Part shown: positions 5,596 to 36,584 of the stretch, piece after piece
Position numbering within the stretch: the first letter of the stretch is position 1
Layout of the letters: every line of letters starts with the position of its first letter
DNA from: Chloranthus sessilifolius
Taxonomy: Eukaryota > Streptophyta > Magnoliopsida > Chloranthales > Chloranthaceae
Assembly: GCA_021018995.1 (NCBI GenBank)
Contig: CM037590.1
Coordinates: forward strand, 79,144,097-79,208,096
Length of the DNA: 64,000 nucleotides
Direction of reading: 5' to 3'
Notes under the pieces: generated by a model
Database searches by the model: none
What the model was told of the DNA's origin: nothing
The model's input: only the letters and a program-made list of their open reading frames with translations
Translations under genes and position numbers: made by a program

Positions 5596-5811
5596 TCTGC
5601 TTACCACGCGAGCATGGATTGTCTTCAAAAAGTTGTGACATTCCACCTGCCGAAGAGAAAATTATTCCGATTCTGCGAAGTCAAATCCTGTGTGGCACCG
5701 TTTATCTTCGCTATACAAGCAGACCGTATGATGAGGAACTGGTGTTGTGGTTATCTGGCATACTTGTAAGATCATAATGAGGAGAAGAAACATATTACAG
5801 ATATTACGATT

Positions 5812-7180
5812 GCTTGCGAGTATCCGGATGTTTTTCTTGAAGATCTACCTCGATTACCACCTGACAGGGAGACTGAGTTTGCGATTGAGTTAGCGTCGGG
5901 TACCGAATCTATATCGAAAGCTTTGTATCGAGTGGCACCTGCAGAATTGAAAGAGTTGAAGGAGCAGCTTCAGGAACTGCTAGATAAGGGTTTTATCAGA
6001 TCGAGTGTGTCACCCTGGGGTGCACCGATTTTGTTTGTGAAGAAAAAAGATGGTTCAATGTGGCTTTGCATTGATTACCGTCAGCTAAATAAGTTGACAA
6101 TTAAAAACCGTTATCCACTTTCGAGAATTGATGATCTATTTGATCAGTTATAAGGAGCAAGATTCTTTTCGAAGATTGACTTGAGGTCAGGCTACCATCA
6201 GTTGAAAGTTAAATCTGAAGACATTTAGAAGAGAACTTTCAGAACCCGATATGGACACTATTAGTTCTTGGTCATGCCATTTGGGTTGACAAGCACACCC
6301 GCGTCATTTATGGACTTGATGAACTGAATATTCAAATCACATTTGGACAAGTCTGTAGTAGTTTTTGTAGATGGCATCCTCATCTATTTAAAGACGCGAG
6401 AAGAATATGAGCAACATTTATGAGTGGCTTTACAAACCCTCAGAGATCATCAGTTATATGTAAAACTTAGCAAGTGTGAGTTTTGGCTTGAGCAGGTCAG
6501 TTTCTTAGGCCACGTTGTCTCTGAGATCGGTATTACGGTTGACCCAGCAAAGATTGAGTCGGTGATGAATTGGGAGCAGTCGAAGACAGTTACAGAGGTT
6601 CGTAGTTTCCTCGGTTTGGCAGGCTACTACAGAAGGTTTGTGGAGGGCTTCTCCAAGATATCAGGTCTGCTTACATAACTTACGAAGAAGAACACTAAGT
6701 TTGATTGGACAGAGCAGTGTGTACAGAGTTTTCAGGAACTCAAAAAACGATTAACTACTACGCCAGTACTTGCTTTACCGTCAGGCAGGGGAGGCTTTAC
6801 AGTGTACAGTGACACATCGTATGGGGGTTTAGGCTGTGTGCTTAACCAGAATGAGAGACTCATTGCTTATGAGTCTAGACAGCTAAAATACCATGAGAAG
6901 AATTATCCGACATATGACCTTGAGTTGGCTACAGTGATCATTATCTTGAAAATCTGGAGGCATTACCTTTATGGGGAGACCTTTGATATATTCACCGATC
7001 ATAAGAGCCTCAAGTATCTCTTCTCACAGAAGGAGTTGAATATGAGACAACGCCGATGGATGGAGTTCTTGAAAGATTATGATTATACCATCCAGTACCA
7101 CCCCGAGAAAGCAAACGTAGTGGCAGATGCGTTAAGTCGAAAGTTCTTTGCTCAGTTATCACATCTCACCGCAAGGGTGT
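5812..7180 (+). pseudogene. G1 reverse transcriptase and RNase H, inactivated
   Basis: RT begins around [17 protein letters not shown], followed by [17 protein letters not shown] and [20 protein letters not shown] (about 6010-6130). The palm motif is read as FVDGILIY near 6365-6390, so the second of the two catalytic Asps is Gly. The thumb/connection segment [19 protein letters not shown] is well kept (about 6500-6560). RNase H follows ([30 protein letters not shown]) to 7180. In-frame stops occur near 5775, 6151, 6226, 6262, 6327, 6421 and 6676. Most fit C-to-T changes in Gln or Arg codons. The element cannot reverse transcribe itself. Confidence 0.9.
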
Positions 7181-7194
7181 GACGATGACATCTA

Positions 7195-8256
7195 TTGGAA
7201 GATATGGCTCTAAGTAGCATGAGATTTGACATAAAAGGTTCATGTGCGTTAATGACTACGTTGGTGATATGTTCTACTCTCTATGAGAACATTCGTAGAC
7301 TTCAGATGACGGATGATGAGCTTATGGCTATCAAACGGGATGTGCTTAGGGGAGGTAAAACAAATTTTTCCATCAAAGATGATGGCACACTGTTGTTTAG
7401 AGACCAGGTATGCGTACTAATTAGTACTGACCTTCGGGACACCATTTTGGAAGAGGCTCATAAGTCTATGTATGTTATTCATCTTGGCAGTACCAAGATT
7501 TACCAAGACTTATAGAAAAGCTTCTAGTGGAGGGGTTTAAAGAAATATCTCGCTGAGTATGTCTCGAGATGTCTTGTATGCCAACAGGTCAAGGTTGATC
7601 ACCGAAATTCGGCAGGATTGTTGTAACTACTACCGATACCCGAGTAGAAATTGGAGGCCATTTCTATAGACTTTATTTTGGGGTTACCTAAGACGTTAAG
7701 GAAACACAATACCATTTGGGTAATTCTGGATCGATTGACTAAGTTGGCACACTTCCTGCCTTATAATACGCCGTATACCGCCAACAAGCTCGCAGAGTTA
7801 TACATTAAGGAAGTAGTTAGGCTGCATGGTATACCGGTCAGTATCATATCTGACAGAGACTCGATGTACACATCTAAGTTTTGGGCTTGAATACAGTACG
7901 ACATTCCATCCTTAGACCGATGGGTAGACTGGGAGGGTGAATCAGATTATAGAGGATATGCTACGTGCTTGTATGCTGGATTTTCAAGGGTTATGGGACC
8001 AACATTTACCACTGATTGAGTTCACCTACAATAACAGTTACCAGGCTAGCATTGGCATGGCACCCTACGAAGCCTTGTATGGACGGTTGTGCAGGTCTTC
8101 ACTTAATTGGAAAGAAGTGAGCGAGAAGCTCATTTGAGGCCTCGAGATCGTCGAGAGTACGACTGAGACAGTTCGATTAATCCGCGAGAGGTTTGCATTG
8201 CTCAAAGTCATCAGAAGAGCTATGCTGATCTTAAAAGGAACCATATTGAATTTCAG
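7195..8256 (+). pseudogene. G1 integrase (zinc-binding and core), inactivated
   Basis: The HHCC zinc-binding module is read near 7445-7590 (ending CLVCQQVKVDHRN). The core has SIDFILGLPK (first Asp) and SDRDSMYTSKFW (second Asp). The third catalytic residue, the Glu of the TDGQTERVNQ-type motif, is Gly at about 7932-7937 next to a TAG. A frameshift occurs near 7880, after which the frame 7937-8137 continues (DMLRACMLDFQG, EFTYNNSYQASIGMAPYEALYG). Stops at 7513, 7525, 7624 and 7648 include two TGG-to-TAG changes. Integrase inserts the cDNA in host chromatin; this copy could not. Confidence 0.88.
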
Positions 8257-8326
8257 GTGAACTTGTAGAATTGATTACATTATTATTGATGTCAAGTGTG
8301 TTTTGTCACTAATACCTGCGTTTCAG
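8257..8326 (+). other. Putative 70-bp intron in the G1 integrase
   Basis: The integrase reading ends at ATTGAATTTCAG and resumes at GTGGGAGACAACG, so the protein joins seamlessly as FQ/VGD. The intervening 70 bases start gtgaac, end gcgtttcag and contain stops. Element G2 has a 73-bp interruption at exactly the same codon junction. That makes a spliced mini-intron more likely than random decay. Confidence 0.55.
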
Positions 8327-8723
8327 GTGGGAGACAACGTATTTGTCAAAATCTCACCTACAAAAGTCATGATGCATTTGGGAAAGTGTGAGAAGCTGAG
8401 TCCGCGCTATGTTGGACCTTTTGAGGTACTAGGCCGAGTCGGCGAGGTTGCTTACTGTATAGCCTTGCCACCGCAGCTATCGGGCATGCACAATATATTT
8501 CATGTATCCATATTGCGGAAGTAAGCGAAGGATTCGACTCACGTATTGGACTACCAGCCCATTGAGCTCTAGGAAGATTTATTGTTGGTTGAGGAGTCAG
8601 TACAAATCTTAGATCGTAAAGAGCAGATCTTAAGAACCAAGAGCATTCCCTTAGTACTCGTGAAGTGGCGGAACCATTCTTCAGAGGAAGCCACTTGGGA
8701 GCGCAAAGCGGAAATTCACGAGT
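8327..8723 (+). pseudogene. G1 integrase C-terminal GPF module and chromodomain
   Basis: After the putative intron, VGDNVFVKISP, then KLSPRYVGPFEVLGRVGEVA gives the GPF/Y module of integrase. HNIFHVSILRK is followed by a stop at 8522. The tail contains a chromodomain-like segment (QILRTKSIPLVLVKWRNHS then EEATWE) near 8620-8700. Chromodomains of Ty3 chromoviruses target integration to heterochromatin. A further stop near 8571 and one at the end make it non-functional in one frame. Confidence 0.82.
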
Positions 8724-9327
8724 AATTTTCATAACTTTTTGAATAAAGGTAATCTTAAACTATGTAGATGTAAGAAAAATATAAGTATTTTTTATGTTTA
8801 AAACTCCTTCTTTTTCAAACAAACATTACATATATCTATAACGATCACACAATAAAATCTTAAATATTATATTTATTCATTTACGGTTAGAACATGTATA
8901 CCAGACATACGGTTAAGCTTCTAAACAAGTATTCGATTTTGACATCTGAAATTTCTGCTCGAGTAATTACCGACATAATATATGTGGTATAGTGAGAAAA
9001 GGGTGAGGTAGATGAGTGTGCTAGGTTTGAGTCACGGTGAAGTATGTTTCCAGACATGTGACACTCAAGAAGGTATGCATCTATGTACGAATGCAATCCT
9101 CTATGACGGTATGGAATGCCACAGGCAGTACATCCAGGTTACTATGGATCCTGACCCTTGAAAAGCGTGCTTGGTGAAGCTTATCACATCGTGACCCATT
9201 CTCTTTAAACATCGGACTGTTTCAATTATGCCTTGATAAGAACTTATGTTGGAATAAGGGTGTACCGTAGACTTACTTAAGCTACCCGTTACATTTTCGA
9301 GGATGAAAATTCCTAAGGAGGGTAGAA
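8724..9327 (+). other. G1 3' untranslated region and polypurine tract
   Basis: There is no coding signal in these 600 bases. The final stretch contains a conserved gaggatgaaaattcc block (9300-9312) and a purine tract aaggagggtagaa (9315-9327) abutting the LTR. The same block precedes the polypurine tract of G2 at about 47752-47782. Confidence 0.75.
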
Positions 9328-11777
9328 TGTAAAGACCCACATTTTTGGACTCGAATCAGACCGACCCTGTGTACGTATTCGGCTTAGCAACCGACGTTAC
9401 CATTTGTTTGGATTTTTATCTAGATGTGATTGTGTGGATAGATTCTAATTTTGAGCCGTTTGGACCCTCGTGCAAAAGTCATGCATCGACCTCGGTGTGG
9501 CCGCTCAACACCGGGCTTGAGTTTTAAAATTAGAAGTGTATAACACACAAGAGGTGTGTGTGGTTAACTTTTTGAGCAATCCTATTATAAGAAGGAATTG
9601 TATTTCCATATTATACTAGGTTTTGCTTAAGAGAGAAAGAGACGTGAGCACCTTGAAGAACTGCAGCCGTGTGATAGTCGACCAACTGTGTAAAACTCTG
9701 TCTCCTCTCTTCTTCAATCATCGTAGGAGATCGGCTTAGAAACCTCCTTCTCTAGAACCCTCTTTTATTGAAACCCTTGAACCTTAGAAAGAACTTGAAT
9801 CAACCTTGGATTCATGTTTACGTTGGGAGAGGTTGAGATTATTGAGAATGTGTAAGACTCACCCTTGTGAACTCGTAGGAGCGATCGCGGCGCGAATCGT
9901 CGAGGAAATTCGTTGATTTTGTTCCGAAACTCCGTTTGCATGACTCGTTTCTAATCAAGGAATCCTTAGATTAAAGGTATGTTTCGATTAAATTTATTGA
10001 TTAAAATCGTTGGATTAGCCATGAGTTTTTGTTTTGGGATGTATATGTATCAATTTGGGTGAAAACTAGGCAAAAATCGCGATCTGAATCGAGTTCTGAA
10101 ACTCAGAATTCTCGCTGTCACTGTAGCTCGCTCAAGCGAGCTATTATCATCGCTCGAGCGAGGATGCACCAGCAGTTTGACTTTAGAAGTCATATAGCTA
10201 AAAAGGTATTCTCTATCCTTGCTCGAGCAAGAATTCATTGCTCGCGTGAGGAAATTCTGAAGGATCTCGCTCGAGCGAGCTATTATCATCGCTCGAGCGA
10301 GGATTCGTTTTCTTCCCCATATTGTCTTGATATTTTAGTCGTAACTTTTTACTTCGAACTCCGATTTATATTATTCTTTTTGTGTTGGAAATATAACAAC
10401 AAACTCTTCAACTTTCGTGTTTTGATCAACTTGTGAATCAATCGTTTTGAAGGTCAAAATGTTAGGATACGGTTACATCAAATTCTTTGTGGGCACAAAC
10501 TTGCCCATTTCGACTCGATTTTAAGGAAACACTTAAATATGTCTAAATTATTAGTGATTAGAGTTAACCTTGATGCATCATCGTATGTTTGTAATGTAGA
10601 TTAAGGGTGAGAGCCCATCAATAGGATTTTGCTTTGCTTCACGCAACTCCAAGTTTTGGTAGGAGAATCTCATCTTTACAGTATTTTATTTTAACTCGCA
10701 TGGATATTTTGAATTAGAACCTTTAAACTTGCATATGCCATTGAAATCACATATATAAACTAAAATTTGAGATTAAAAACTAAAAATCTGAATCTACCTG
10801 AACCCTGAAACCTGAATCTGCTTAAGCTCTGAAAAGCTGAAAATCTAAAATCAAGAATCTGAACTATATATAAGAAACTTGTATCTGATTTATATTGGTA
10901 TATGCATCTATTTTATGATTGACATGAACGACCCCTCAAAAATTCTAGAATATCTTCCTGGCACAAGTTTCCCTCCTGAGTGTAGGGGATTGTTACATCT
11001 TGAAAATGGTTCATGAACAACGATGGTAGGTTGGGGTTCCCATCGGCTATATTCCTATTCTCGAGATATAGTTTACTAGGGAGGTATTTTAAGTTGAGGA
11101 TTAAGTTATGAATTACTGAACTTTGCTTATAAAAGTTAGAGAAACGAAGACACTGAAACCTTGCATCTGTTCTTAAATCTGTTTTCATCTATTTAGAAAC
11201 TGATCTTGCATAAAAATTTTACACTTAAATTCTGTTTTACCTGCATTTCTGATTTTGACATATTATGTTCCGATATTTGTTTTGAAACCCATGCTAGTTA
11301 AAATATAATGTCGTTGATGATATTTTTCTATTGAGCTTTGTTGGTTAGATCACTCAGACTATGCATCACAGGTTCAGGCACTGGCGTGGTTGTTCAGGGT
11401 TGTGAGACTGATCCTGATTTCGTACCCAAGGGAAAGCCTGAGGTTCTTCCTGAGGAGTATTTCCTGGCTTAGGATCTAGTTCATTTATTTACTTTTGGTG
11501 AGAGTGTGAGACTTAGATTTGTAGGCCCACCTTTGGTTGGATATTTTTGGTTTAGTATTTATTATTTTATTATTGTTGTGAATCATATTTCGATGATGGT
11601 CGGCCATCATCGGTAGTTCTTTACTTTTATTGCTTCCGCAATTTTTTTTTTTACCTTTGGTTATTTATTACGCTTTACTCTGATATGTGTTCTGCTTGTC
11701 TGACTTATCGTTTAACCGATAGGTTGGAGAACCGACCTTTCTTATATCTGAGGGATTGGAAAAGTTGGATCGTCACA
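9328..11777 (+). repeat. 3' LTR of G1
   Basis: Collinear with 1751-4179. Its palindrome array (10125-10303) carries an extra pair of GCTCGAGCGAG units relative to the 5' LTR, so the array expanded or contracted after insertion. Confidence 0.92.
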
Positions 11778-13096
11778 TAACCTATTTGACTCGAGCAAAT
11801 AAACTTGTAGGGAGGTCTAAACATCTAATGCCATAAAATATCTAGTTCGGAATCATTATTCTAAAGCTCACTACATGGGTCATTTAGAAAGCTTAAAAAG
11901 GTTTGAGTATTGCACAAGTCACATTGCTATTGTCTCAACAGTGTAAGTGCAAATCTTTGCTAGCATGTGATTTTAATCTTTATTTTCCCTCTTGACAAGT
12001 TTCTCATTTGTTGTCAATGACTTACTCATATATCACGCACATATTTATTTAATAGATTGCATTTCTTTATAATGAATAAACAGGGATAAACTAGTCTCAT
12101 GTAAAATGTTGATGATCTCTAGATTAGAAAGTGAAATTTGATGATCTATGCTTATATTCATTTCATGCATTGAGATCATGTTGTTGATCATAGAATCTAT
12201 GAAATATTCATGTGAGCTTTTTTGAATATTTAATAAATAGTGTGAGTATTCCTCTTGATGATTGACTAGATTTTATAACATTCCTATAGGAGGATAGTCT
12301 ATAATTAAACAAATTTTCATCATATTTTTTCGTTATTTTCACAACCTATTTGCACGTTTGCACACTGTACATCATAGATGTCCATTGTCATTTCACGAAC
12401 GTCCGCACTTTCAAGATCTCGCTGGTCGAGTGCACTTGTAATAGGACGGACATCCGTGGAAAATCAACGGACGTCCGTGAATCACAATGGTTCAACTTTC
12501 TCAAACGTTGGTCAACTGCGATTTTTGAACTGGTCTTGCACGGATGTCCATGGATCTGCAACGGATGTCCGTGAAAAAAGAAAAAATATTTTTTTAATCA
12601 TTTTCACCAGACGTCCGATTGTGTTCTTTTACTCATTTTCACCAGATTTTCATTGTTTTTACAAGCATATCTTTATAATTTTGATTCCTAATTGTTCAAA
12701 TCTATATAACATGTTGCTTGTGAATGTGTTCCTATTCATTCATGGATGCTTCTTCATTTTACTTTCATTGTCACATTATGAAAAAAAGGGAGAGATAATT
12801 TCTTGTTGGTATAATGATTTTTTTTATATTCCCTGTTACACTTGATCTTCTGTTTTGCATTGTTTCTGTAACAGGTGAATGTGGAAAATGGGTCGATGAT
12901 CATCATAAAAAAAAAACCTAGTTTTTATAGTTTTCATACTTGGTAAATAAGTTAGGGGCAGTAAATAGAGCTGTAATTTTTGCATTGAATGTTAGATTGA
13001 TATATAGGAGTTAGATGAGAGCTAATTTGATGTAATTTTTATTTTATTGAGTCCTTGTAATCTAGGTTTTGTCATGATTGTGATAAAGAGAGAGAT
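11778..13096 (+). other. C1 internal region, 3' part, with internal motif array and polypurine tract
   Basis: It begins with the second copy of TAACC. I find no pol domains. Between 12395 and 12625 several copies of a near-palindrome of the type ACGGACGTCCGTG occur, related to the motif in the C1 LTR. The overlapping 74- and 155-residue ORFs here have no recognisable content. It ends with a purine tract (13084-13095). Confidence 0.65.
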
Positions 13097-18321: not shown

Positions 18322-18324
18322 TTC

Positions 18325-18450
18325 CACTACGTCAAAATGAAAAGAAAACTACTTTTGCAATATAAAAAAGAACCATTGCCAAGCAGTGGTGTAATAATCT
18401 ACTCTCAAAATCCATTGTTTATTAAGTTAAAACAGTGGTTTAGTTCCTAA
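18325..18450. repeat. Left terminal inverted repeat and subterminal repeats of the CACTA element
   Basis: CACTACGTCAAAA terminus followed by copies of the subterminal motif (GCAGTGGTG at about 18383, ACAGTGGTTTAG at about 18432), matching motifs at the right end. Confidence 0.8.
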
Positions 18451-18842
18451 CTCTTACATCACGTGCACTCCTCTCTATTGTCACGTGTAAAACTATCGAG
18501 ACCCCAAAAATCTCCCCAAAATTCTATTTAGCTGACAATCTTTTCTGTAGCTAACAAAGCTACCGCTCCTCCTCTCTCTCGCCCCATCTCCTCTCTCTCG
18601 CCCCATCTTCCTCTTCGAAACCCTAACCTCCATTGAAGGGGATTTTGTGTTGAAGGTTGGAGACGATGTTGAAGCATCTTCTAAATCTCCAGATTCAGTT
18701 CATCTCCCTCCTCGTCAAACCTTCCTCAAACCCTAACTCAGATCAAACGACGCGCACTCCTAAAATAAATCTCTCTTTCCTCTTTTTCCTCTTTTTCTTC
18801 TCTTATCTTTTCATATATCTTCTGTAAATAGAAAAAAAACAA

Positions 18843-18953
18843 ATGGAAGCTGCGATGGATCTGATGCGGAGGATCTCTCCGAACCAGTCAGAAAGCGCTC
18901 TATTAGCTCTTCTATCCCTAATCTCTCAACACTCCTCATATCTCCTCTCTCAA
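18843..18953 (+). pseudogene. Captured exon 1 of F-actin-capping protein subunit beta
   Basis: The ATG at 18843 opens 37 codons (MEAAMDLMRR, PNQSE, ALLSLISQHSS, LLSQ) that match the start of plant capping protein beta. That protein caps actin filament barbed ends as an alpha-beta heterodimer. The exon ends at Gln with a GTAGGT donor, at the position where the family has its first intron (phase 0). Upstream, 18550-18842 is CT-rich and carries cgaaaccctaacc motifs like a captured promoter/5' UTR. The rest of the capping protein gene is absent. The next exon belongs to a different gene, so the fragment was captured as promoter plus first exon and may drive a chimeric transcript. Confidence 0.82.
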
Positions 18954-19064
18954 GTAGGTAAAAGCTACAAGGTGATAACCTGGATGTTTTATTTTCTCTC
19001 TCTCTCTCTCTCTTAATATATATATTAGCTGATTGAAACCTTCATTAATTTCTTAATACTGCAG

Positions 19065-19289
19065 TCGAGGCTTGATAATTCATGGGACCCGACTTCGGAT
19101 AGGGCGAAGAAGCTGTTGATATTGGACGATGGAGAGAGGATTGATGGTGGTTTCTTAGATGCGAGAGAAGATGTTCTTTCGATCAGTGACGATATTGGTG
19201 ATTCCTCCAATGGTGTTCTAGATAAGTGCATTGTACATCTCCCAATGAAATGGGATTCTGAGAAATTGAAGAACTATTTAGATGATCAG
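19065..19289 (+). pseudogene. Captured exon of a TRM2A/C3H24-like tRNA uracil methyltransferase
   Basis: A 225-bp open exon between ctgcag and a GTACGT donor, phase 0 on both sides. It reads NSWDPTSDRAKK near its start and KCIVHLPMKWDSEKLKNYL near its end. This matches the segment after the CCCH zinc finger and the start of the RRM-like region in plant zinc-finger C3H24-type tRNA (uracil-5-)-methyltransferase homologues. The zinc finger and the methyltransferase domain are not present. It stays in frame with the capping protein exon upstream. The family assignment rests on motif recall and could be checked with a protein search. Confidence 0.62.
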
Positions 19290-21745
19290 GTACGTCGGTC
19301 TAAAATTGAATTGATGATTTTTGGTAGTTTGATTCCACTCTGTTTTTATGAAATGGTGGAGATTAGATTACAATCTTTCTTTTTCCCATAAATTTAGGCT
19401 TAATTATTAATATATACTTTGTTATCCATAAAAAAAAAGTTCAAAAATTTAGGCTTTATTGAATTTTATACAGACTATTTAGGAGACTAATGGGTCTAAA
19501 TCCTTAATGTCTTCTGCCCTTCTTCGGAACACATTAAGGATTCCACAACATTATAAAAGTGAACTTTAGACTCTTACCAATATACATTGCCCGGTAGTTA
19601 TGGAATTCGTGAAAGAATTTCACAATATACTCTTTAAGCAACTCCCAAAACATTGTAAAGAATTCCAGCCTGAACCCATCGTACAGAGCCTTCTTTTTGC
19701 CAATAGTCATCTTATCTTAACCCTGCTTCTATAGGTGAGTCTGTTAGAACCTATGAGCTCTTTGGTGAGTCTATTAGATTCTGACTGCTTTTAGTGGGGT
19801 CCTGTTCCTTGGGAACAAGGACGCCATTCTTCCATAAAATTTAGCTCTGTTTTGGCTTTTTGCCCAGTTTTAAAATATATTCCATAGCAGCCATTCTTCC
19901 AGTTATTTCCCTGCAACTTTGCAACCCTCACTCTTAGTGGCCTGCAACTCCTCTTTTCACACTATCAACATGGCTCTTTTGTCATTTCAATAACACCTTG
20001 TTTATCTTTATAACTCCCTGAAATGGCCCCTGTTTTGCTTTTCATCTCAGCCATGCCACAACCCCGTTTTGGACTAAACACTCCTTTGGTGGAGACAGGT
20101 CCAAGCAAAACCCTCCATTTTGGTGAAGACAGGTCCGAGGGGTCTCAAAGAGGACTTATTTTGGAAGAGTTGGTATATTGTAACCAACTCATTCTAAGTT
20201 GATGTTGTGGTCTGTAATAATCATTACAACTATTAGACTTTAGGCGTCAAATTCTCTTCAAGATCTATGATCACTTAAATGCCTAAGATGACAGCCCAAT
20301 CTTCCAAGTGTAATAACGAGTTCCCAAATTCCCAGCTAGGGTCCTTGAAATCTGATTATATCTATCTCAATCTGAATAAAGGTATTAGATTAAATTGACT
20401 CCCTATTATTTGAGTAAGTCAAAGTCATTCAATTTCAAGAGCAGATATTGCATAAGGTAATCACAAGTCTAATTATTTATTCAATTTTATTTTCATAAAT
20501 TATATTTTTTAGCCCATAGTTTTCTAACAATTTATTAAGGCTTCCATCAAGGTGCCTAGTCTGAGCTCTCTAAGATCAAATTTAGACTGCGTTTGGGTTA
20601 GCTCTTTGGGGGTAAAGAGCAGCTCTTTCACTTTTGGGTCTGGCTAAAAGTTGAGACAGCTTGTATTTTTTGGGGGACAAATTGAGACTTTTTGGGGGAC
20701 AAATTGACCCATCAAACGGGGGCCAAAAAAGAATAATTTTTTTAAAAATCACATGCCCCATGGCTGATCAACCCAAAGACTTTTGTTTGTTTTTATTTAT
20801 TTATTATTGATTTAAATTTTCTCAAGTCACTTTTACAAACTGCACACATAATTATACTATGATTTAATGTTCTTGTTTCTTGTTCTTGTCATTGTAAACG
20901 TCTAGGGGGTAAGGTAGTGCTGTAGCCTTTGTTCTCTTAAACCCTTGATTAGGAGGAGATTGAGTCTCTTTTTAATTTTTTGGGGTTGATAATTGTTGGA
21001 GGTTTTCTGAGGATGGCATAGATAGTATGCTTTGGCTGTTAAAAAAGTTTTAGGTTCTCTCAATCCTTTTTTCTCGTGGTAACAGCTGAAAAAGTGGAGG
21101 GCCTTCACCTTGTGGTAGGATTTTGAGCTCTTATGCCCCTGGTAGAGTTTAGGTATTCACCTGGTTGACGCGTCTTGATAAGAGCCAAACAGGTGGGGCT
21201 GGTTGGATGGGCTTTGAGGCGTGGTCCTTAGGATTATGGGTTTGGATTGTAGGAAAAAGCCCGCCGGGCTAGAAATGGTATTTGAGACCTACCAGAATAA
21301 TGGACCCGAATGTTCAATGCTTGTGTTAAAACATCAATAGGACACAGCTAGGCTAGTCAAAACTTAGTATGCAGGCCTTGGCCCATAAATTTTTTGGGCT
21401 TAAATTTAGTTGGTAGATGGTAAGTTCCAATTTCTTTACAGTAGGAAAAAAAATTCAGAAAAGAAAAAAACAAAAATAGATGGTGGAAGCAGTATTATGT
21501 ATAATTGTTTGGAGTCCAATTTTTTCTTCCATGTAATTTTTTTGTGTTTCCATCTTTGAGATGTACAAATAAATACTGTTATCAATTCGTGCAACATAAA
21601 AAGTTTAATATTTTCTCAAGTTTTCTCTTAACCGATTGTTCTCTCTTGTAGTTATCAGATTGTTCTCTTTTTTTAATTTAATACATCCCTAAGTCTTCTC
21701 TTAACAGATGTTCTCTGCTGTGCTTCTCTTTCTCTTTCTTAACAG
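19290..21745 (+). other. Intron-like DNA between captured exons
   Basis: 2.4 kb with no further exon that I can identify. It includes a short direct repeat (tttttgggggacaaattga, about 20669-20708) in a MITE-like block beginning gcgtttgggttagctctttggg (split around 20590-20610), and repeated tgagtctgttaga-type phrases near 19735-19780. A minus-strand ORF at 20902-21108 has no domain content. Confidence 0.4.
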
Positions 21746-21808
21746 TATAAGCCAGAAACTTGTGAGATTCAGGCTCATAAAGGGAATAAAATCAAAGTAC
21801 ACTACCGG
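21746..21808 (+). pseudogene. Captured exon of an FKBP15-type peptidyl-prolyl isomerase
   Basis: A 63-bp exon (acceptor aacag, donor GTAAGT, phase 0 on both sides) reads [20 protein letters not shown] plus Arg. Plant FKBP15-1/2, ER-lumen FK506-binding isomerases, have the same segment immediately before the FKBP fold (KPxxCExQAHKGDKIKVHYR). The rest of the fold is absent. It is in phase with the two upstream captured exons. Confidence 0.75.
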
Positions 21809-22412
21809 GTAAGTATTTGTTCAACTTCAATTTTATATACAGTGGTTGACACACTAGAAAATAAGTATAGGTATGTGTCCAGTTAACCCCCATACATGAG
21901 CAATGTCAATAGTTTGACCATTTTTTTTAATAGCTTTTTTAACTCTATAACTGGATATTTGTATGCTTATCCGTTTCTTGACTTTGGTTTTGTTTGTGTG
22001 ACATCCTCTTATTTTTGCAGTATGGTAAGCTGAAACTTTTAACTTAAACCACTTTTTGTCTAGGAATATAAGGAAAATAGATGATATGGTGCTTTAAATT
22101 TTTTTTCGATTCATGAATTTATTTTTTTATCGGAAAAATCACACATAGTATAATAGTGAAAGAAGGCATGGTATCACAATTAGTTCCACTTTCAATATCA
22201 GAATTCCCATATTTTTGAAAATCTGAAGTGCATGAGTTAATGGCATAACTTTAAAACTTCGCATCTAGTCAATTTTTTTGTAGGGAGTCCTCCAAGCAAT
22301 GGAAAAATTTTATCCCAAGAGTCACATTATAATTTTTTTTGAATTCTCAAGCATCTTAGCTCATCTTATTTGTTTTGAATTCTCTTGTTCTTTAATAATT
22401 TTTTTTTTTCAG

Positions 22413-22506
22413 AATCTGCAAGAAGCTAACAGATTAATGATAGTGGACGAAATGGTGCATATGATTTGAATGCCAGAAACAATTGAATCACCTATTATAG
22501 CAAGGT
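22413..22506 (+). other. Unidentified exon-like segment with acceptor site
   Basis: It follows a long T-rich tract and ttttcag. If joined in phase 0 to the FKBP15 exon it reads NLQEANRLMIVDEMVHMI and then stops at 22467. I do not recognise it. It may be the end of a chimeric ORF or part of another captured gene. Confidence 0.35.
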
Positions 22507-23754
22507 AGTATGAAATCCCGGCTTCCTTTGTCCTTTTTATTCCTTTCAAATCTTTCAGGAAAGCTAAGATCAGCACAGTGGAAATATTAGGTCCTCATAA
22601 CTCTGTGCCTGCTGACATTTACATATTTAAGTAAATAGGTGCCAAGAGGTTGTATGGTTACCATGTGAATTATTTTAGTTTTGTTCATGTAATGGTCTCT
22701 TCTATCCTGAAGGATATAATTTGACAATTGGGAGTTTTAACTCAATTAGAATCTTACTCAAGATGTTCCTACTACTCTATTTTTATTCCCTTTTAAATGT
22801 TGGGAGCTTTCTTTGTAGTTATTAAGACATTTAATGTTTTTCATAAATTTTGCAAAAGAGCTGTGTTTGCTTTATGAACAACCTCCATCTCAGTTGTTAT
22901 ACTAGTGTATTCTATGCAAGTCCTTGACTAATATTGATGCCTTTAGGGAAATAAAGAAATTTAGTAGATGCAGCTTTGGACATCTGTAGATGGCAGTCCA
23001 GCAGGCTTGTGTTAACAACATTAGTCTATTTAAAAGCTTGATTTCTGTAATGAAGTCAATCATTTTTCCAATCCATTTTTCTGATCTTCAAAGTTTCTCA
23101 TTGGATTGTTACCGATTCTTTATTTCTCTTTTCTATTTTCTTTCTTTTGTCATTATTTTTTTCATATATACATTTTTTTGATTCCTCGATGTAATTTTAC
23201 TACTTGACAAAGATTTAGTTTCTGATCTAAGAGTTAAACTTCATTTTCCCAATTGTTGATGTGCATGGTTAAAATTTGGCTCGAAATGATGACTCTGATG
23301 AATATACTGTTTCTCAGTCATGGTTTTACGTTTTACCTGTAGTATTGTGCTGGGGATAGTAGCCTATATAGGCTTATTATAAACTTACTACTGTCTTCCT
23401 GAGATTTAAGAGCATGCTTGATTTAGTAAATAAAGTTAATGTTGTAACAGCTTGCAAGAGCAGAAACACAAAAGAGTGTGTAGTGGTTAGGTTACTAAAT
23501 ACTAATAGGGAAAATTGATGTTGCCCTGAATTACTTCCTAGGGGGCGCAGGCTCTATGCCGCAGAGTAATGGTGTCAATGTGTTGGGTTGGGCTGGGCTT
23601 TGATATACTTGGTTCCTAACCGGGCTTAAAAATTGGACTTGACCTAGCTCATTTACTAATTGGGCTTGATTATTAATTGGGTTTTGGTGATTTTCTCCTT
23701 TATAATGATAACATTTTTTCTTTGCATTCAATATTTAAGCTGTATCTTCTTTAG
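22507..23754 (+). other. Intron-like DNA between captured exons
   Basis: No exon is recognised in this 1.25 kb. A hAT-MITE-like relic may lie at about 23566-23695 (taatggtgtcaatgtg, then GGGCTxGGC-type blocks), without clear duplications. Confidence 0.4.
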
Positions 23755-23888
23755 GGTTTTGGTGATTTTCCACCGCACTCAAGTAATTCGCAGAGAACTG
23801 CTTCTCTGATTAGATTCTGTGAAAAGCGAAAAGAGCAATGTTTTGATAAGAAAGTTCGATATTCTGTCCACAAAGAGGTCGCTCAAAG
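23755..23888 (+). pseudogene. Captured CCT-domain exon of a ZML/GATA-TIFY transcription factor
   Basis: The exon (acceptor ctttag, donor GTAAAT, ends in phase 2) reads DFPPHSSN, then [20 protein letters not shown] and [12 protein letters not shown]. This is the CCT motif of ZIM/ZML (GATA24/25/28-like) factors, where RFxxKRKERCFDKKIRYxVRxEVAxR is the signature. One Arg is Cys and another is His, which suggests decay. The TIFY domain upstream and the GATA zinc finger downstream are absent: the next exon does not continue the family sequence. CCT motifs act in nuclear localisation and protein binding. Confidence 0.83.
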
Positions 23889-24310
23889 GTAAATTGATGG
23901 ATAATGTTATTCATGGTATAATTTTGTGAAGGATGGCTCTGTTTTCATGAATGTTGTGTGGATGTAATTTTATTTGAAATGCTTTGGATATGGCTTTTGA
24001 TGTTTCATATACAAAAATCTTCCTAAATAATGATGTGTTTACAAGGAAATAAAGTTTCGATATCTTCCTTCTGTTGACTAGATGACATTCTCATGTAAAC
24101 TCATTTGCAATGGTTCTTTGTGATCTCAAGTAAAATAATCAAATTAGGGGTGAATTACTAAAATATTGAATTTATAAAGCAATCACTTTTTTTATTGTAA
24201 GTAGGCTAGTTAGAAAAGCAATCACTTTTTTTATGTTAAAATTTGTTCTTATGCTGTTCCTTTTTCATGGGTTGCAAATAAATCAGTCACTGTTGCTGTT
24301 TCTTTGTCAG

Positions 24311-24476
24311 GGAACAACATAGCTGCTATAAAATCAAAGCTGTTATAAAATCATTTGAGGCAAATGTGACCAACACAATTATGGAGATCCATTTACTATG
24401 GTTGGAAGAGGGACTTGCTGCATTCCACATCAGGGAACTTATGGACCATTAGTTTCAGCAATATATGTTTCTCAAG
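24311..24476 (+). pseudogene. Captured exon of an unidentified gene (part 1)
   Basis: In one frame the 3' half reads CDQHNYGDPFTMVGRGTCC, then IPHQGTYGPLVSAIYVSQ, ending with a single base before a GTTCGG donor. The next exon (24572-24645) continues in the same phase (G|AC = Asp), which strongly suggests two consecutive exons of one gene. A different frame, continuing from the CCT exon, is open for 46 codons but resembles nothing. I do not recognise the family. Confidence 0.5.
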
Positions 24477-24571
24477 GTTCGGAAATGGTTCCTCAAATCA
24501 TAGTTCACAATTTCTGTTTTTAAATTCATTACATGCTTCAATTGACTAGTTCTGTGTTTCAATTATGGCAG

Positions 24572-24645
24572 ACTCCACAGCCATTAATTCTCCATCTGAC
24601 CATGACAAAAGGCGTGTAGGAGTTGCTGTTGGCTGTGCCATCGAG
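24572..24645 (+). pseudogene. Captured exon of an unidentified gene (part 2)
   Basis: Acceptor ggcag. It reads (D)STAINSPSDHDKRRVGVA then VGCAIE before a GTTCTG sequence. Phase and sense fit the preceding exon. The SDHDKRRVGVAVG segment looks like real protein sequence, but I cannot name it. Confidence 0.5.
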
Positions 24646-24714
24646 GTTCTGATCATTTCATTTCATTTCATTTACATTCTACTTGTATATATTCTTCCGA
24701 GGAGCTCCCACCTT

Positions 24715-25135
24715 CTGAATTCTCATCATTTTGAGAATTTCCTTTTCCACGTTCTCATTTTAAAATTTGTTGTGCATAAATGGACATAGTTTTGGCTTTT
24801 TAGGCTACCTTATGAGTCCTCATCATTTTGAGAATTTCCATTTCCACGTTCTCATTCTCAAATTTGCTTGAGATCTTTTATGCATAAATGGACATCTTTT
24901 TGAATTTTAGGCCACTGAAATTCTTTTAAAACTGGCACCCAGCATTTTTTTCTAGGAGTCAAATGGTTACTTATCAAATTTATAGAAATTATTTGAAGCA
25001 TATTTTGTTTAGGTAAAATTCTTTTAATACTGGTACCAAACATTGTCTTCTAGGAAATTAGAGGAGCATATTTTGTTTAGGTGCAATTCTTTCAACACTG
25101 GTACCAAACATCGTCTTCTAGGAAATTAGAGAAGA
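24715..25135 (+). repeat. Local tandem duplications inside the CACTA element
   Basis: A block around catcattttgagaatttcc ... gcataaatggacat occurs at about 24725-24788 and again at about 24825-24895. A second unit (aattctttYaAxactggYacc ... tcttctaggaaattag) occurs about three times between 24915 and 25130. They are non-coding. Confidence 0.65.
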
Positions 25136-25516
25136 CACACTAGGTAAGAGAGATTACTTACATTACATAATTTATAGAAATTAAGCAAAGAAAATTCTGT
25201 TTAGGTACGCATAATAGAAGTGCTGTTTCTGTCATTAAGGAAAGTAGAAGTGCTATATTTAAGTGCATTGCTGCTGCGGTACACGTTAATCTATCACCAC
25301 CAGTAACCATGTAAAGTGTTTGACCAATGGAGCACCGCCGTACTCAACTATTTAAATCAAACTTAAATACACTGTATGTCATTGGTCAACCATTTCAACG
25401 GTTGCCAAGGGTTATAGGGATATGGCCTCCAAAACAGATTTTTTTCCTATGTGTAGGTTCAATTTATTTCAGATTGATCCCACAGAAGTCTGATACAATC
25501 AAATAACTTTTGACAG

Positions 25517-25621
25517 ATCTTAGATGAATATCAGTAGAACATTGGAGATTCTTGGAGAAATGTACAAACTGATGCGAGTGAACCATGGCCTTATTTGAAT
25601 GAACTTCTAACTAAATTTCAG
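25517..25621 (+). pseudogene. Captured YKT6 exon
   Basis: A 35-codon exon (acceptor gacag, phase 0) reads ILDEYQ, a TAG stop, then IGDSWRNVQTDASEPWPYLN and ELLTKFQ. This matches the plant R-SNARE YKT6 just before the SNARE coil (VLDEYQK-FGESWR, then PWPYL). A Lys codon became TAG. YKT6 is a prenylated SNARE in ER-Golgi and vacuolar fusion. The fragment lacks the N-terminal longin domain exons. Confidence 0.85.
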
Positions 25622-25781
25622 GTTCTTGTTATGCTTATTTTTTTTCATTGAACTTACTACCATTATCAGTTCCAGCATCCAGCATAACTTCACACTATGT
25701 AGAGTTTTATTTAATGTATCAGGCTGCCTTGTCTATGGACACATTTTTCTAGGGAAAGTAATACGAGCTTTTCATTTTCAG

Positions 25782-25847
25782 GATTCTGCAGAAGCAGATA
25801 AGTTGTTGAAAATTCAAAGGGATTTGGATGAATAAAAAATTATCCTT
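25782..25847 (+). pseudogene. Captured YKT6 exon, start of SNARE motif
   Basis: Acceptor tttcag, donor GTGAGT. It reads DSAEADKLLKIQRDLDE, a TAA stop, then KIIL, matching the next YKT6 exon (DPAEADKLLKIQRELDETKIIL). Its order and phase relative to 25517-25621 are those of the parent gene, so a genomic segment including the intron was captured. It carries one nonsense change where the parent has Thr. Confidence 0.86.
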
Positions 25848-25904
25848 GTGAGTAGTAATTTGAAAACTGCATAGGATTTACATCACTTTTTCTCGTATCC
25901 CTGT

Positions 25905-25906
25905 AG

Positions 25907-25962
<56 letters not shown>
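25905..25962. repeat. (CT)n(AT)n microsatellite
   Basis: About 11 CT units directly followed by about 17 AT units. Confidence 0.9.
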
Positions 25963-25967
<5 letters not shown>

Positions 25968-26631
25968 GATCTTATGACTCAAGTCATACTGTTTTCTCAA
26001 GCATCAAACGGGTGCAATCTAGAAATGCAGCCGTTAGATGCTTCAAAACGGGTGCAATCTATAAATTTTTTTGTTCTTCTCTTAAGTTGATTTGTAAGAA
26101 AGGATGCTTGAAAAGTTCATCAAATTTTATAACTGAAATTTCTACATCGAGATTTGATAACTACGATCTATGTTTTCAGTGATAATGGGTCCTATTAGGT
26201 ACTTGATAATTTCTACAACTCATATCTTAACTCTTTTTTTTTTGGTATTCTTTGGGTATTGGTTTCATATTTTTTAGCCTATGTCTGTTGCTGCTATTAT
26301 TTTGAGCTTATAAAGGAGTTTGTGTGGCTGTTTTCCGAAGAGTTTTGAGTATCTGTTGTACTTTTAGCTACTGTCTTTTCAGAGTTGATGATTGCTCTGA
26401 GTACTACTTCTATACATTTTCTTTAATCTACAATATATCAGTTTAAGTTTTGCATAGGTTACGGCTGCTGTTTGAAGATACGGTTGGTTCTAATCTATGG
26501 CTAATACTGCAGCAGTGGTTGTGTTTTGTACAGAGAAAATAAAGATTGAATAGCTGGTTTCCACTGGTCTTTCAAACCTTATAATATAATATTTTTAATA
26601 TGATAATCAAGTATGTTTGCCTTTTTTTTTT

Positions 26632-26659
26632 GTGATAATCTGATAATCTGATAATCTGA
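26632..26659. repeat. Short tandem repeat TGATAATC
   Basis: Three to four consecutive copies of an 8-9-base unit. Confidence 0.7.
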
Positions 26660-26907
26660 CCAAAGAATTTCCAAGACGATGTGTTGTACTCTGTCTTCTA
26701 GGTGGGTTTAAGAGCTGCAAAATGAAACTTGATTGTCTAATTTCTTCAAAATTTATGAAATTTAACTTCCCCTGGTTTGACAATTGAGCTGTGTTAGCTT
26801 TGTGCCTACTCATGTACTTGTTGGTCCAGGTGATTTTTCTATTTCTTGTTCAAATTGTTGAATGGTTTAGTTTTAGACTGGGGCTTTAAAATTTTGCTTT
26901 GTTGCAG

Positions 26908-26987
26908 ATATTAAAGGCTTCCTTGTAGATGTGAAACCTGCACTGCTTAGTACACTTGATGCTGAATATGAAAAAAATCCATTCGAG
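26908..26987 (+). pseudogene. Captured exon of an unidentified gene
   Basis: Acceptor gttgcag, donor GTATAA, 80 bp. One frame is open throughout: IKGFLVDVKPALLSTL then DAEYEKNPFE. I do not recognise it. It lies 45 bases upstream of an internal CACTA-type end at 27033-27049. Confidence 0.45.
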
Positions 26988-27032
26988 GTATAACCCTCTT
27001 GTGCAAAATTGTGTGTTTTAGACAGGTTTTTT

Positions 27033-27049
27033 GGCTTTTTCACGTAGTG
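27033..27049. repeat. Internal second copy of the CACTA right terminus
   Basis: GGCTTTTTCACGTAGTG, preceded by acaggttttttgg, repeats the last 17-18 bases of the element. The following bases ctt do not match the TTC at the left end, so 28380 is the better outer border. Confidence 0.75.
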
Positions 27050-27240
27050 CTTGAAAAATTAATAGAATTTTAGTGGGTTTTGGCTGATTTTTTTTGTTGG
27101 GGTTTCATTGGGTTATTTTTTAATGAACACTCTATAGGCAGCAGAGCTACCGGGTCTTTCAATAACATTGTTATGGTGCATAATTCCTAGATTATGGGGT
27201 TTTAGGATTTTAGGATTTTTAGAAAGGATTGGTCCATTTC

Positions 27241-27277
27241 CTAGATTCCGTCAGATTTATCGAGTCATGCACCGAAG
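27241..27277 (+). pseudogene. Captured dihydroorotase exon (3' part)
   Basis: Before a GTATTT donor the sequence reads LDSVRFIESCTE plus a split Gly codon. This matches the (TT)MDAVxFVESC segment of plant mitochondrial dihydroorotase. It joins in phase (G|GA) to the next exon. Confidence 0.75.
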
Positions 27278-27360
27278 GTATTTTAGTCATTTGAATTTGA
27301 ATTTCTTGTACTAATTACTAAGTTTCTTTTCATTAATGTACTGATCTTTACATATGTTAG

Positions 27361-27510
27361 GATCTGTTGCTGCAACTGTGACACCACAACATCTTCTCCT
27401 CAACAGAAATTCTATATTTCAAGGTGGATTACTGACCACACAATTCGCCTTCGTCTTGAAAAGAGATTCATCGTTCCAATGATCCTTTTGCACAATAGTA
27501 AGCGGATTGG
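27361..27510 (+). pseudogene. Captured dihydroorotase exon
   Basis: Acceptor gttag. It reads SVAATVTPQHLLLNRNSIFQ and GG before small indels scramble the following HNYCLPVLKRE-like part, with a stop at about 27480. This is the AATVTPQHL-LNRN-LFxGG block of plant dihydroorotase, the third enzyme of pyrimidine synthesis, and it includes a metal-binding His of the family. All upstream catalytic exons are missing. Confidence 0.85.
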
Positions 27511-27929
27511 AGAGGTCTATTTACATGCTTTTGTTGTAACATAATCGCGTCCTCCATTGATTTAGGACTCGTGAAATTTCTCGTGTTTCAAATGATTGTT
27601 TTCTTAGTAAGAAACCTGATTTTTGCTTGGCATCTTGTAGTTGCTGTTGTTCCTTATTATTGAAGCATAAATGGCCATAAAAGAAGGAATAATAATTTTT
27701 GGAAGGACTAGGATGTATCTTTTGGAAATTGAGAACTCGACTAGGGTTCTGTGTTCCTAATAGAGATTATGGGATGGGACTTAAGTGACCATAAGTGATC
27801 ACGTGATATCACCTATGGGAGGGGGATCCTTTGTTCTATTCTACATAATGTATTTTACATTTTTTTTATCGGCATATATATTTTACATATTCAAGCAATA
27901 TATAAATCTAGGACCTAAAACAGGCTCTT

Positions 27930-28135
27930 TTCATGCTAAGAGATTATAAATTACATTTAAAAATTAAATTTTTTTTTCTTTATATAATTTTTTTTAAAGC
28001 ATTAAAAATTACATTTAAAAAAAGTATTACAAAAAGTATAAAAAATATTGCATTAAAAAAAAGCATAAAAAAAATATTATTTAAAAAAAATTTGCATAAA
28101 AAATTGTCGACGTAATTTTTTTAAAAAAAAATTTT
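27930..28135. other. A/T-homopolymer-rich block near the CACTA right end
   Basis: Repeated attacatttaaaaa / gcattaaaaa phrases with long A-runs. It is non-coding; ORFs through it are low-complexity Lys/Phe. Confidence 0.6.
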
Positions 28136-28140
28136 TGTAT

Positions 28141-28296
28141 AAAAAAGCCACTGCCCTAAACAGTTGTAAAAAAAGGAGTGGTTTTATTTTACCACTATAC
28201 AAGACAGTGGTTTATGAACTTCATAAACCACTGTCTTGTATAGTGGTAAAAAAAAACCACTCCTTTTTTTACAATTGTTTAGGGCAGTGGTTTTTT
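28141..28296. repeat. Near-perfect ~77-bp palindrome of CACTA subterminal repeats
   Basis: Left arm 28141-28218 and right arm 28220-28296 are reverse complements around a single C at 28219, with only three or four mismatches or gaps. Each arm contains CCACTGCCCTAAACA, GGAGTGGTTTT, TACCACTATAC and AAGACAGTGGTTTATGAA. A single strand would fold into a long hairpin. Further copies of the CAGTGGTTTTTT motif lead up to the terminus at 28380. Confidence 0.9.
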
Positions 28297-28383
28297 GAAA
28301 AAAACCCACTGTCAAAGACAGTAGTTTTTTGAAAAAATCACTGTTTAAGGCAGTGGTTTTTTGGGCTTTTTCACGTAGTGTTC

Positions 28384-35180: not shown

Positions 35181-35267
35181 GCCGACAATTGCACCTTTTA
35201 TATCCGGCATTCGAGCTAAACGTTTGATGAATAATGGATGCCACGATTATCTCGCATTCGTATAAAA

Positions 35268-36584
35268 TCAACAGGAAGAGAAGGTCACCATTATCGATAT
35301 TCCCATTGCATGCGAGTTTCTCGACATATTTCTTGAAGAGTTACCAGGCTTGCCACCAGACAGAGAAGTGGAGTTAGCAGTGGATTTGGCTCCAGGCACA
35401 GAACCAGTATCAAAAGCCCTGCATTGCATGACACTGACCGAGTTGAAAGAACTCAAGGAGAAATTACAAGAACTCTTAGACAAAGGATTTATTAGACCAA
35501 GTGTCTCTCCATGGGGAGCACCCATCCTTTTTTTCAAGAAGAAAGATGGTTCTATGCGGCTTTGCATTGATTATCGCCAACTAAATAAGTTGACGATCAA
35601 GAATCGCTATCCACTTTCTTGTATTGATGATCTATTCGATCAACTCCAAGGCACATGATTCTTTTCGAAGATAGATATGAGATCAAGATACCATTAGTTG
35701 AAGGTTAAGGCAGAAAACATTTCCAAAATCGCTTTTCACACTAGATATGACCACTATGAGTTTCTAGTGATGCCATTCGGGTTAATGAATGTACCAACAT
35801 CTTTCATGGATTCGATGACATCCTCATCTATTCGAAGACCAGAGAAGATCACGAACAATATCTATGTCTAGCTCTTCAGATACTTCATGATCACCTGCTA
35901 TATGCGAAGCTAAGCAAGTGTAAATTTTGGCTGGAGAAAGTTAGTTTTTTGGGACATATTATACCTGAAGAAGGCATTAAAGTTGACCCAACTAAAATTG
36001 AGGCCATCATAAAATGAGAATAACCAAAGACAATGACCGAAGTTCGAAGCGTTTTGGGTTTAGCCAGGCATTACAAGAGATTCACTAAAGGTTTTTCCAA
36101 AATTGCAGGACCGCTTACTCAACTCATGAGAAAGAATGACAAGTTTGAATGGAATGACTCCTATGAGAATAGCTTTCAAGAGCTGAAGAACAAGTTAAAT
36201 TCAGCACCGATTCTTGTCATACCGTTTGGCCGTGGACATTTTGTAGTTTACTGTAATGCCTCACACAGTGGATTGGGTTGTGTACTCAACCAAAATGGGA
36301 TAGTTATCGCTTATGGCTCTCGACAACTCAAGGATCATGAGAAGAACTACCTGACTCATGACTTAGAGCTGGCAACAATTATTTTTGCCCTTAAGATTTG
36401 GAGGCATTACCTTTATGGGGAGACGTTTGAGATCCTTACCGATCATAAGAGCCTAAAATATCTTTTCACTCATAAGGACTTGAATATGATACAAAGAAGA
36501 TGGATTGAATTCTTAAGGGATTATGATTACACCATTCAGTACCACCCTGATAAAGCGAATGTAGTAGCAAACGCTTTGAGCTAA
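35268..36584 (+). pseudogene. G2 reverse transcriptase and RNase H with a deletion
   Basis: The start is [20 protein letters not shown], then [17 protein letters not shown] and [20 protein letters not shown]. At about 35812 the reading jumps from SFMDS to DDILIYSKT, so roughly 20 residues before the catalytic Asp pair are deleted. FLGHIIPEEGIKVDP and the RNase H ([28 protein letters not shown]) follow. An RNase H catalytic Asp appears as Asn (YCNAS), and the Asp of the C-terminal ADALS is Asn. Stops at 35656, 35695 and near 36015-36023 fit C-to-T or G-to-A changes. Confidence 0.88.

Follow-up and report, generated by a model that had tools for sequence, protein, structure and literature searches.

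A 64,000-nucleotide stretch of Chloranthus sessilifolius DNA (assembly GCA_021018995.1, contig CM037590.1, positions 79,144,097 to 79,208,096; hereafter the window) contains a CACTA-type transposon of 10,056 bp at window positions 18325-28380. Its interior is a mosaic of host-gene modules, all of which recur elsewhere in the genome and several of which do so in other combinations. The cargo consists of pieces of about seven host genes, two of which (FKBP15 and MOR1) are weakly named. The reading that we favor, to which we assign a probability of roughly 70%, is that the element is a non-autonomous member of a Pack-CACTA family that has kept its arms, has received recurring modules that were swapped between copies, has gained material by the joint mobilization of tandem insertions, and holds its cargo in the sense direction through transcription-linked retention. 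We accordingly see the element less as a solitary collector of gene fragments than as an assembly drawn from a shared pool of recurring modules.

The element starts with CACTACGTCAAAA and ends with the reverse complement of CACTACGTGAAAA. These terminal inverted repeats, which begin with CACTA at 18325 and 28380 and face outward, agree at 12 of 13 bases, and a TTC stands on either side, so that the ends and flanks are those described in the first-pass annotation of this DNA. The shared subterminal motifs described there are likewise present, since 6 of the 12 exact copies of ACCACTG/CAGTGGT in the window lie in the arms (two in the left and four in the right). In addition, the right arm contains an 85-nt inverted repeat (28134-28304, 93% complementary). 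The boundary features are as follows, where UTR is untranslated region.

18322..18324, no strand: left 3-bp flank TTC (target-site duplication)
18325..18337, + strand: left terminal repeat CACTACGTCAAAA
18325..19025, + strand: family left arm, with terminus, leader, capping protein beta (CPB) 5'UTR and exon 1 (ATG at 18843), and substitute GT sites
27963..28380, + strand: family right arm, with subterminal CAGTGGT/ACCACTG repeats and the inverted repeat
28368..28380, - strand: right terminal repeat, reverse complement of CACTACGTGAAAA
28381..28383, no strand: right 3-bp flank TTC

With CACTA termini, a 3-bp target-site duplication, and subterminal repeats in both arms, this is a CACTA (En/Spm) transposon. 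A Pfam scan of six frames of 18325-28223 (the last ∼160 bp lie outside the scan) returned no transposase domain, and the element is therefore taken to be non-autonomous. It holds host gene fragments between CACTA ends and has copies with differing cargo, which makes it a Pack-CACTA element. A Pfam match of 24282-24449 to Hantavirus Gn (E 0.018, below cut-off) was judged to be due to chance. Among the literature matches listed for the terminal repeat sequence, no title was about transposons.

Copies of the family were sought in the window's own assembly (2.17 Gb, 32 contigs). The best 40 candidates were scored in each search, and copy counts are accordingly lower bounds. The left-arm query (18325-18700) gave at least 40 matches, the window included (best 40 of 1107 candidates), which bears out the expectation that other copies with the same termini exist. 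Because the left arm recurs across the genome in this way, we rejected the idea that one-mismatch 13-mers with equal 3-bp flanks arose by chance. Ten of the 39 other left-arm loci (c14a, c3a, c1a, c8, c1b, c1c, c14b, c2, c4, and c3b) were compared over 20 kb each. Both ends are visible in five of them, and three of these five have equal 3-bp flanks, namely c14a (GTA, 7.5 kb), c1a (CAC, 12.7 kb), and c1c (TAC, 11.8 kb); with the window counted in, equal flanks are found in four of six two-ended copies. Up to 19013-19025, the left arm is 94.9 to 98.2% identical to that of the window in c14a (98%), c3a (97%), and c1a and c8 (both 95%). The window interior gave no match of at least 60 bp at E 1e-5 in the ten compared loci, which share the arms only. 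One of these loci, c1a, carries a block with clathrin-heavy-chain and 14-3-3 exons in the sense direction, found wholly or partly in c8, c14b, and c1b; this block is another multi-gene mosaic of the same CACTA family.

The left arm includes a head of host origin. The CPB exon of the window matches Pfam at 2.3e-5 (24.6 bits, just short of the 26.3-bit cut-off) and PDB at 5.9e-4. By alignment, CPB leader and exon-1 sequence is present in 8 of the 10 compared copies, one of which (c2) is without the start-codon bases. Because the exon is common to so many copies, the simplest account is a single ancestral capture of CPB, which now heads most of the copies compared. As judged by eye, the exon runs on into an apparent native donor in c14b, c1b, c2, and c3b; the window, c14a, c3a, c1a, and c8 share a later replacement at the end of the CPB exon, which brought in other GT sites.

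Behind this head, the interior is divided as follows, where DHOase is dihydroorotase.

19016..20669, + strand: TRM2A/CCCH-like module, exon 19065-19289; left edge in a (TA)n tract, exon 5' edge inside a parental exon
20779..22332, + strand: module with FKBP15-like exon 21746-21808; 98-99% copies at C10:100.63M and C4:1.24M
22350..24667, + strand: ZML-like module, CCT exon 23755-23888; collinear matches at C13:73.92M, C2:80.47M, and C3:22.43M
24680..26046, + strand: YKT6 module, exons 25517-25621 and 25782 onward, with stops
26060..26651, + strand: multi-copy module with no gene name
26666..27019, + strand: MOR1/XMAP215-like module, exon 26908-26987
27020..27049, - strand: internal orphan right end; terminal repeat 27037-27049, then CTT
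27050..27241, + strand: two short repeated pieces between the internal right end and DHOase
27233..27953, + strand: DHOase module, with an exon end (to 27277), an intron, and the start of the next exon (27361 onward), with indels

Each interior module has matches at two or more other genomic places. Neighboring modules meet within ∼20 bp, save for a 34-bp gap at 20670-20703; a C15 match to 20700-21121 spans the module edge at 20779, and the sequence 20704-20778 also adjoins the TRM2A module in three copies. The YKT6, MOR1, and DHOase modules and the 26060-26651 piece are found in other spacing at C14:32.14-32.155M, as are 20700-21121, the 26060-26651 piece, and the MOR1 and DHOase modules at C15:83.85M. 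The FKBP module and the 26060-26651 piece occur together at C10:100.63-100.64M.

The + strand exons reported earlier stand for CPB, CCT, YKT6, and DHOase, which have database matches, and for TRM2A by way of a gene on C4. The CCT domain matches Pfam at 3.4e-8 as a single exon, and the gene behind it is presumably ZML. When the two YKT6 exons were joined, with X at stops, the match to PDB was 1.2e-4. The second DHOase exon matches PDB at 1.1e-3; joining the first exon to it gave no better match, so the first exon is identified through the gene at C5:26.87M. Thus, both two-exon pieces are present as proposed, and in the window YKT6 carries stops and DHOase carries indels. The TRM2A/CCCH-like exon had no Pfam match, and in PDB it had only unrelated matches (best E 0.017, integrin) that were judged to be due to chance. 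The FKBP15-like exon, which has 21 codons, matched neither Pfam nor PDB; it is identical at 16 of 20 positions to what we take to be a plant FKBP15 sequence, and this is the weakest identification. Searched alone, the exon at 26908-26987 had no PDB match; its 99% counterpart at C13:32.73M is followed by an exon that reads DGLPREDISGKITPSLLKNLGSPDWKV. For that following exon, the best two PDB matches are CKAP5 (E 0.13) and a Drosophila chain (E 0.12), both of which we take to be of XMAP215 type. Named from this neighboring exon, 26908-26987 is probably MOR1/XMAP215-like, which supplies a likely name for one of the two or three exons that had been left unnamed.

Gene copies on other contigs were located for four fragments (TRM2A, DHOase, YKT6, and the MOR1-like piece), and breakpoints were compared for TRM2A and DHOase, as a search for parent loci had been proposed to do. 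Since the gene copies sit on other contigs and the breakpoints fall in mid-exon, an ordinary gene cluster was rejected. The MOR1-like piece has several 98-99% copies, any of which may be the gene. Alignment to the gene copies extends through the DHOase and TRM2A introns, in agreement with the claim that introns were kept; capture at the DNA level, which had been concluded from this, is plausible and follows from the retained introns only.

The clearest case of prior rearrangement is TRM2A. The gene at C4:136.24M has an open frame of 252 residues, in which a CCCH-type segment (named by eye) runs into the captured part with no intron. Because this frame is continuous across the breakpoint, the TRM2A piece begins inside a parental exon. 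At the junction the parent reads CTGCGG-CCGAGG and the copies read CTGCAG-CCGAGG. The chimeric start, or a changed or degraded form of it, is found at five or more other places. One of these, C12:97.27M, has, ∼3 kb past the module, a right arm of the family type (79% alike) whose right end is followed by AAA; no left end was found in the stretch of this copy that was examined. TRM2A reached the window from an already rearranged family copy, and in the window a (TA)n tract (19016-19025) holds the join between its module and the CPB head. A left-type end, CACTACGTGAAAATGAT, was also observed at C13:46079400-46083400 (position 2798, reverse strand), a few bases from the end of the TRM2A match to the C4 gene.

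A similar history is probable for DHOase. The exon HITTLDSVRFIESCTEG is unbroken in the gene at C5:26.87M, and the window copy starts at DSVRF. The bases before it, CCATTTCCTAG, are unlike the gene and match three copies (C7:48.13M, C3:93.9M, and C2:51.2M); they join the gene sequence at a common CCTAG. In the C15 copy, the DHOase module continues past 27953, where the right arm is joined in the window. DHOase therefore probably came from an already rearranged copy. In a separate observation, the DHOase-fragment locus at C7:48.128-48.140M shares stretches of about 70-110 bp, 81-85% alike, with other family copies and possibly belongs to a related gene-collecting family.

For YKT6, the gene copy at C3:152.47M has both exons open and is 76% alike. 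A second copy, at C10:29.5M, is 97% alike and includes a stretch that we take to be the preceding YKT6 exon. Since it has the same stop after LDE as the window, the YKT6 piece of the window is from a broken copy like this one or from a common ancestor. At C11:96993900-96995700, an oppositely directed right-type end of the family breaks a YKT6-like copy at the start of its QDPAEAD exon, which reflects either an insertion into a YKT6 copy or a neighboring element.

These junctions modify the first-pass annotation in two respects. Two acceptor-like AGs were made by junctions inside parental exons, so that the splice borders, described there as intact, are not so at the 5' edges of TRM2A and DHOase. 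Nor can a single transposon be credited with capturing exons of six genes, given that CPB is family-wide, TRM2A is in another family copy, and the DHOase junction is common to copies that are not parental.

The MOR1 and DHOase pieces are separated by an orphan right end. The last base of this perfect 13-bp right terminus is at 27049, and the next three bases are CTT, unlike the outer TTC. Before it lie ∼30-38 bp of right-arm sequence that abut a MOR1-type intron. The stretch from MOR1 through the internal end to DHOase matches in full at four or more places, the window included (95-97%), and was therefore copied as a unit. In a published model, the outer ends of two neighboring insertions mobilize both of them along with the intervening DNA (PMC8903248). 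As a relic of such a tandem composite, the 27049 terminus would fit this model: an internal terminus relic is present beside captured DNA, and a left-end relic of the second element is absent. The missing left end either speaks against the tandem model or needs a deletion, which the model allows (PMC8903248).

The cargo is uniformly oriented. Both-strand Pfam scans (X at stops) covered the window element minus its last ∼160 bp, c14a, c3a, c1a 5688-12168, c14b 971-2753, about 9.3 of the 11.8 kb of c1c, and about 10 kb at C12. At E≤0.01, all eight cargo families (CCT, EF-hand, clathrin, 14-3-3, Aquarius, Vac14, Arf, and RRM) are sense relative to the left arm, as is CPB (E 0.01 in the window). 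In these scans, which took in the window element, five other loci, and 1.8 kb of c14b, no antisense cargo was found at E≤0.01, and one antisense match was at 0.081. The uniform orientation first remarked for this element thus extends family-wide. EF-hand, clathrin, Aquarius, and Arf lie above the Pfam curated cut-offs, as does CCT when taken as a single exon; other sense matches, with E above 0.01 (RNA_ligase 0.022, RecX 0.077, and Roc 0.049) were left uncounted. The scan is insensitive on either strand, having missed YKT6, DHOase, TRM2A, and FKBP. A two-sided sign test on 8:0 gives 0.008, and the split becomes 12:0 when TRM2A, YKT6, DHOase, and the MOR1-like piece, which were not found strand-blind, are added. 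Plant introns are T-rich on the sense strand, so AT skew can be used as a second measure of orientation. The skew is negative in seven of seven cargo stretches, a set that includes C12 (left end not found) and excludes c4, and in 46 of 58 one-kb windows as compared to 45 of 93 flank windows. Because modules are shared between copies, these counts are not fully independent. We found no orientation bias in print for CACTA cargo in a literature mostly outside subscription papers, which is not proof of absence.

With regard to coding potential, four GT sites were tried as CPB donors, and those following 18953 and 18971 keep a frame open through the TRM2A and FKBP-like exons for 133 or 139 codons, both exons being read in their native frames. 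Because YKT6 carries stops and DHOase carries indels, a long protein is not to be expected. The family could be viewed as a promoter-led exon assembler, in which a host 5'UTR, start, and first exon form the head, the cargo is sense-only, breakpoints provide acceptor-like sites, and chimeric proteins may be made, a view that we consider doubtful.

In the mechanism that we propose, a CACTA transposase made elsewhere would act on the ends in trans. Modules would enter and swap by repair-type joining at short shared sequences; the junctions observed fall in the (TA)n tract at 19016-19025, at CTGCGG/CTGCAG for TRM2A, and at CCTAG for DHOase. Some material would be added by tandem insertion and joint mobilization of neighboring copies, with the orphan right end at 27049, and DHOase between the inner and outer right ends, as the expected relic. 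The cargo follows the direction of the gene start in the left arm, probably because elements with sense-readable, spliceable cargo are less harmful, or longer lived, than those with reversed cargo.

Several points weigh against this proposal. Flanks are unequal in two of the five two-ended copies, c3a (ATC/TAT) and c1b (AAC/AGC), and in the other five of the ten loci no right end was recognized within the compared 20-kb stretch. The CPB sequence is missing from c4 and c1c, which do have the terminus and leader. In the window's own subfamily a replacement has taken the place of the end of the CPB exon, and simple conservation for splicing therefore does not describe the head. Over 11.9 kb, no family ends were found with the DHOase copy at C7:48.13M, and exchange between members is for this reason shown for TRM2A and not for DHOase. 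No left-arm match above shuffles was found in 27050-28100 as a partner for the 27049 terminus. As to orientation, three of the eight sense families (14-3-3, Vac14, and RRM) fall below Pfam cut-offs, the 5:0 split of the five passing families alone would arise with a two-sided probability of 0.06, and AT skew is slightly positive (+0.007) over the 20-kb c4 stretch. Transcription and splicing of the cargo are themselves predicted from sequence.

Other explanations can be set against this evidence. Direct serial capture, in which the element itself took each fragment in succession from the parent genes by gap repair after excision, would agree with the four gene copies on other contigs and with the kept introns. 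However, the recurrence of the chimeric or degraded TRM2A start at other places contradicts it for that fragment, and DHOase preceded by CCATTTCCTAG in three compared copies, together with the full MOR1-internal end-DHOase stretch elsewhere, makes it unlikely for DHOase; taken as a whole, it is the most improbable of the alternatives. A stronger contender concerns the 27049 right end, which may be a stray short copy made by template switching rather than a relic of a tandem composite. The short length of right-arm sequence against the MOR1-type intron and the lack of a partner left end would suit such an event, whereas the exactness of the 13-bp terminus, its proper direction, the CTT that differs from the outer flank, and the captured DNA outside it would not, and we place the stray copy somewhat short of even odds.

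The sense orientation could also be an accident of few independent captures, with modules inherited and swapped in register. Swapping preserves orientation, so the effective sample is smaller than the fragment count, the loci scanned on both strands are few, and three of the families are below cut-off; yet twelve different genes are sense and none is antisense, and an 8:0 split in either direction has a chance of 0.8% for a fair coin. We regard an accident as unlikely, although less so than an origin in the capture mechanism itself, such as the copying of nascent or unspliced transcripts during gap repair. Unspliced RNA would retain introns too, and the strand-blind 8:0 result, which extends to c1c with no CPB head, would be expected if capture set the direction. 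On the other hand, no hallmark of RNA such as intron loss was noticed, no systematic search for one having been made, and swapping between co-oriented elements would preserve any orientation once set. A capture-based origin of the orientation is accordingly improbable, and transcription-linked retention in a module-swapping Pack-CACTA family remains our preferred account.

Outside the element, the window holds Gypsy-type polymerase reading frames at 5770-7182, 35266-36584, and 61738-63526, and at 56-478 a reading frame like the C-terminal part of a receptor-like kinase (all named by eye).

How cut-and-paste transposons order and acquire host exons has been argued from rather few cases. With gene copies, intermediates, junctions, and a fossil terminus in one genome, serial capture, swapping, and tandem fusion can be separated copy by copy, and the one-way cargo behind a host-derived first exon makes the transcription idea a countable test. 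Maize Helitrons, which belong to another superfamily and have no terminal inverted repeats, resemble the element here in being multi-gene fragment mosaics and show a preference for the sense orientation. Among CACTA elements, the available text on Tpn1 of Ipomoea describes non-autonomous elements with kept ends, interiors replaced by genic captures, 3-bp duplications, and chimeric transcripts (PMC5105172). The conserved ends and captured genic interiors are alike in the two families; a family-wide host first exon, mosaics of about seven genes, and one-way cargo are not described in that text for Tpn1 (PMC5105172). Multi-gene capture by a CACTA element was, as the first-pass annotation held, already known from the 5.7-kb Tgm-Express1 of soybean, which in the part of the report available contains exons and introns of five unrelated genes, as compared to about seven here, and is spliced into a host transcript; no statement on cargo orientation was found in that part (PMC1947982). 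Pack-CACTA and other Pack-TYPE elements of Arabidopsis, maize, and rice have conserved ends and internal cargo, with several loci per element, most in maize Pack-CACTA, and the tandem-insertion/joint-mobilization model was put forward for them, again as far as the accessible text goes (PMC8903248; review PMC13317346). The same text makes no mention of a fossil internal right end, a CPB-type head, or sense-only cargo (PMC8903248, PMC13317346). For the CACTAs of wheat 3B, the available part of the source reports 140 captures, exon shuffling, and an inferred exchange between two CACTA families; the captures there are genes flanked by two elements of one family, and that part gives no junction-level module map (PMC4290129). 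Taken together, these comparisons place the element in a kind already known from Tpn1, Tgm-Express1, and Pack-CACTA, within which a host-derived head with one-way cargo is unusual.

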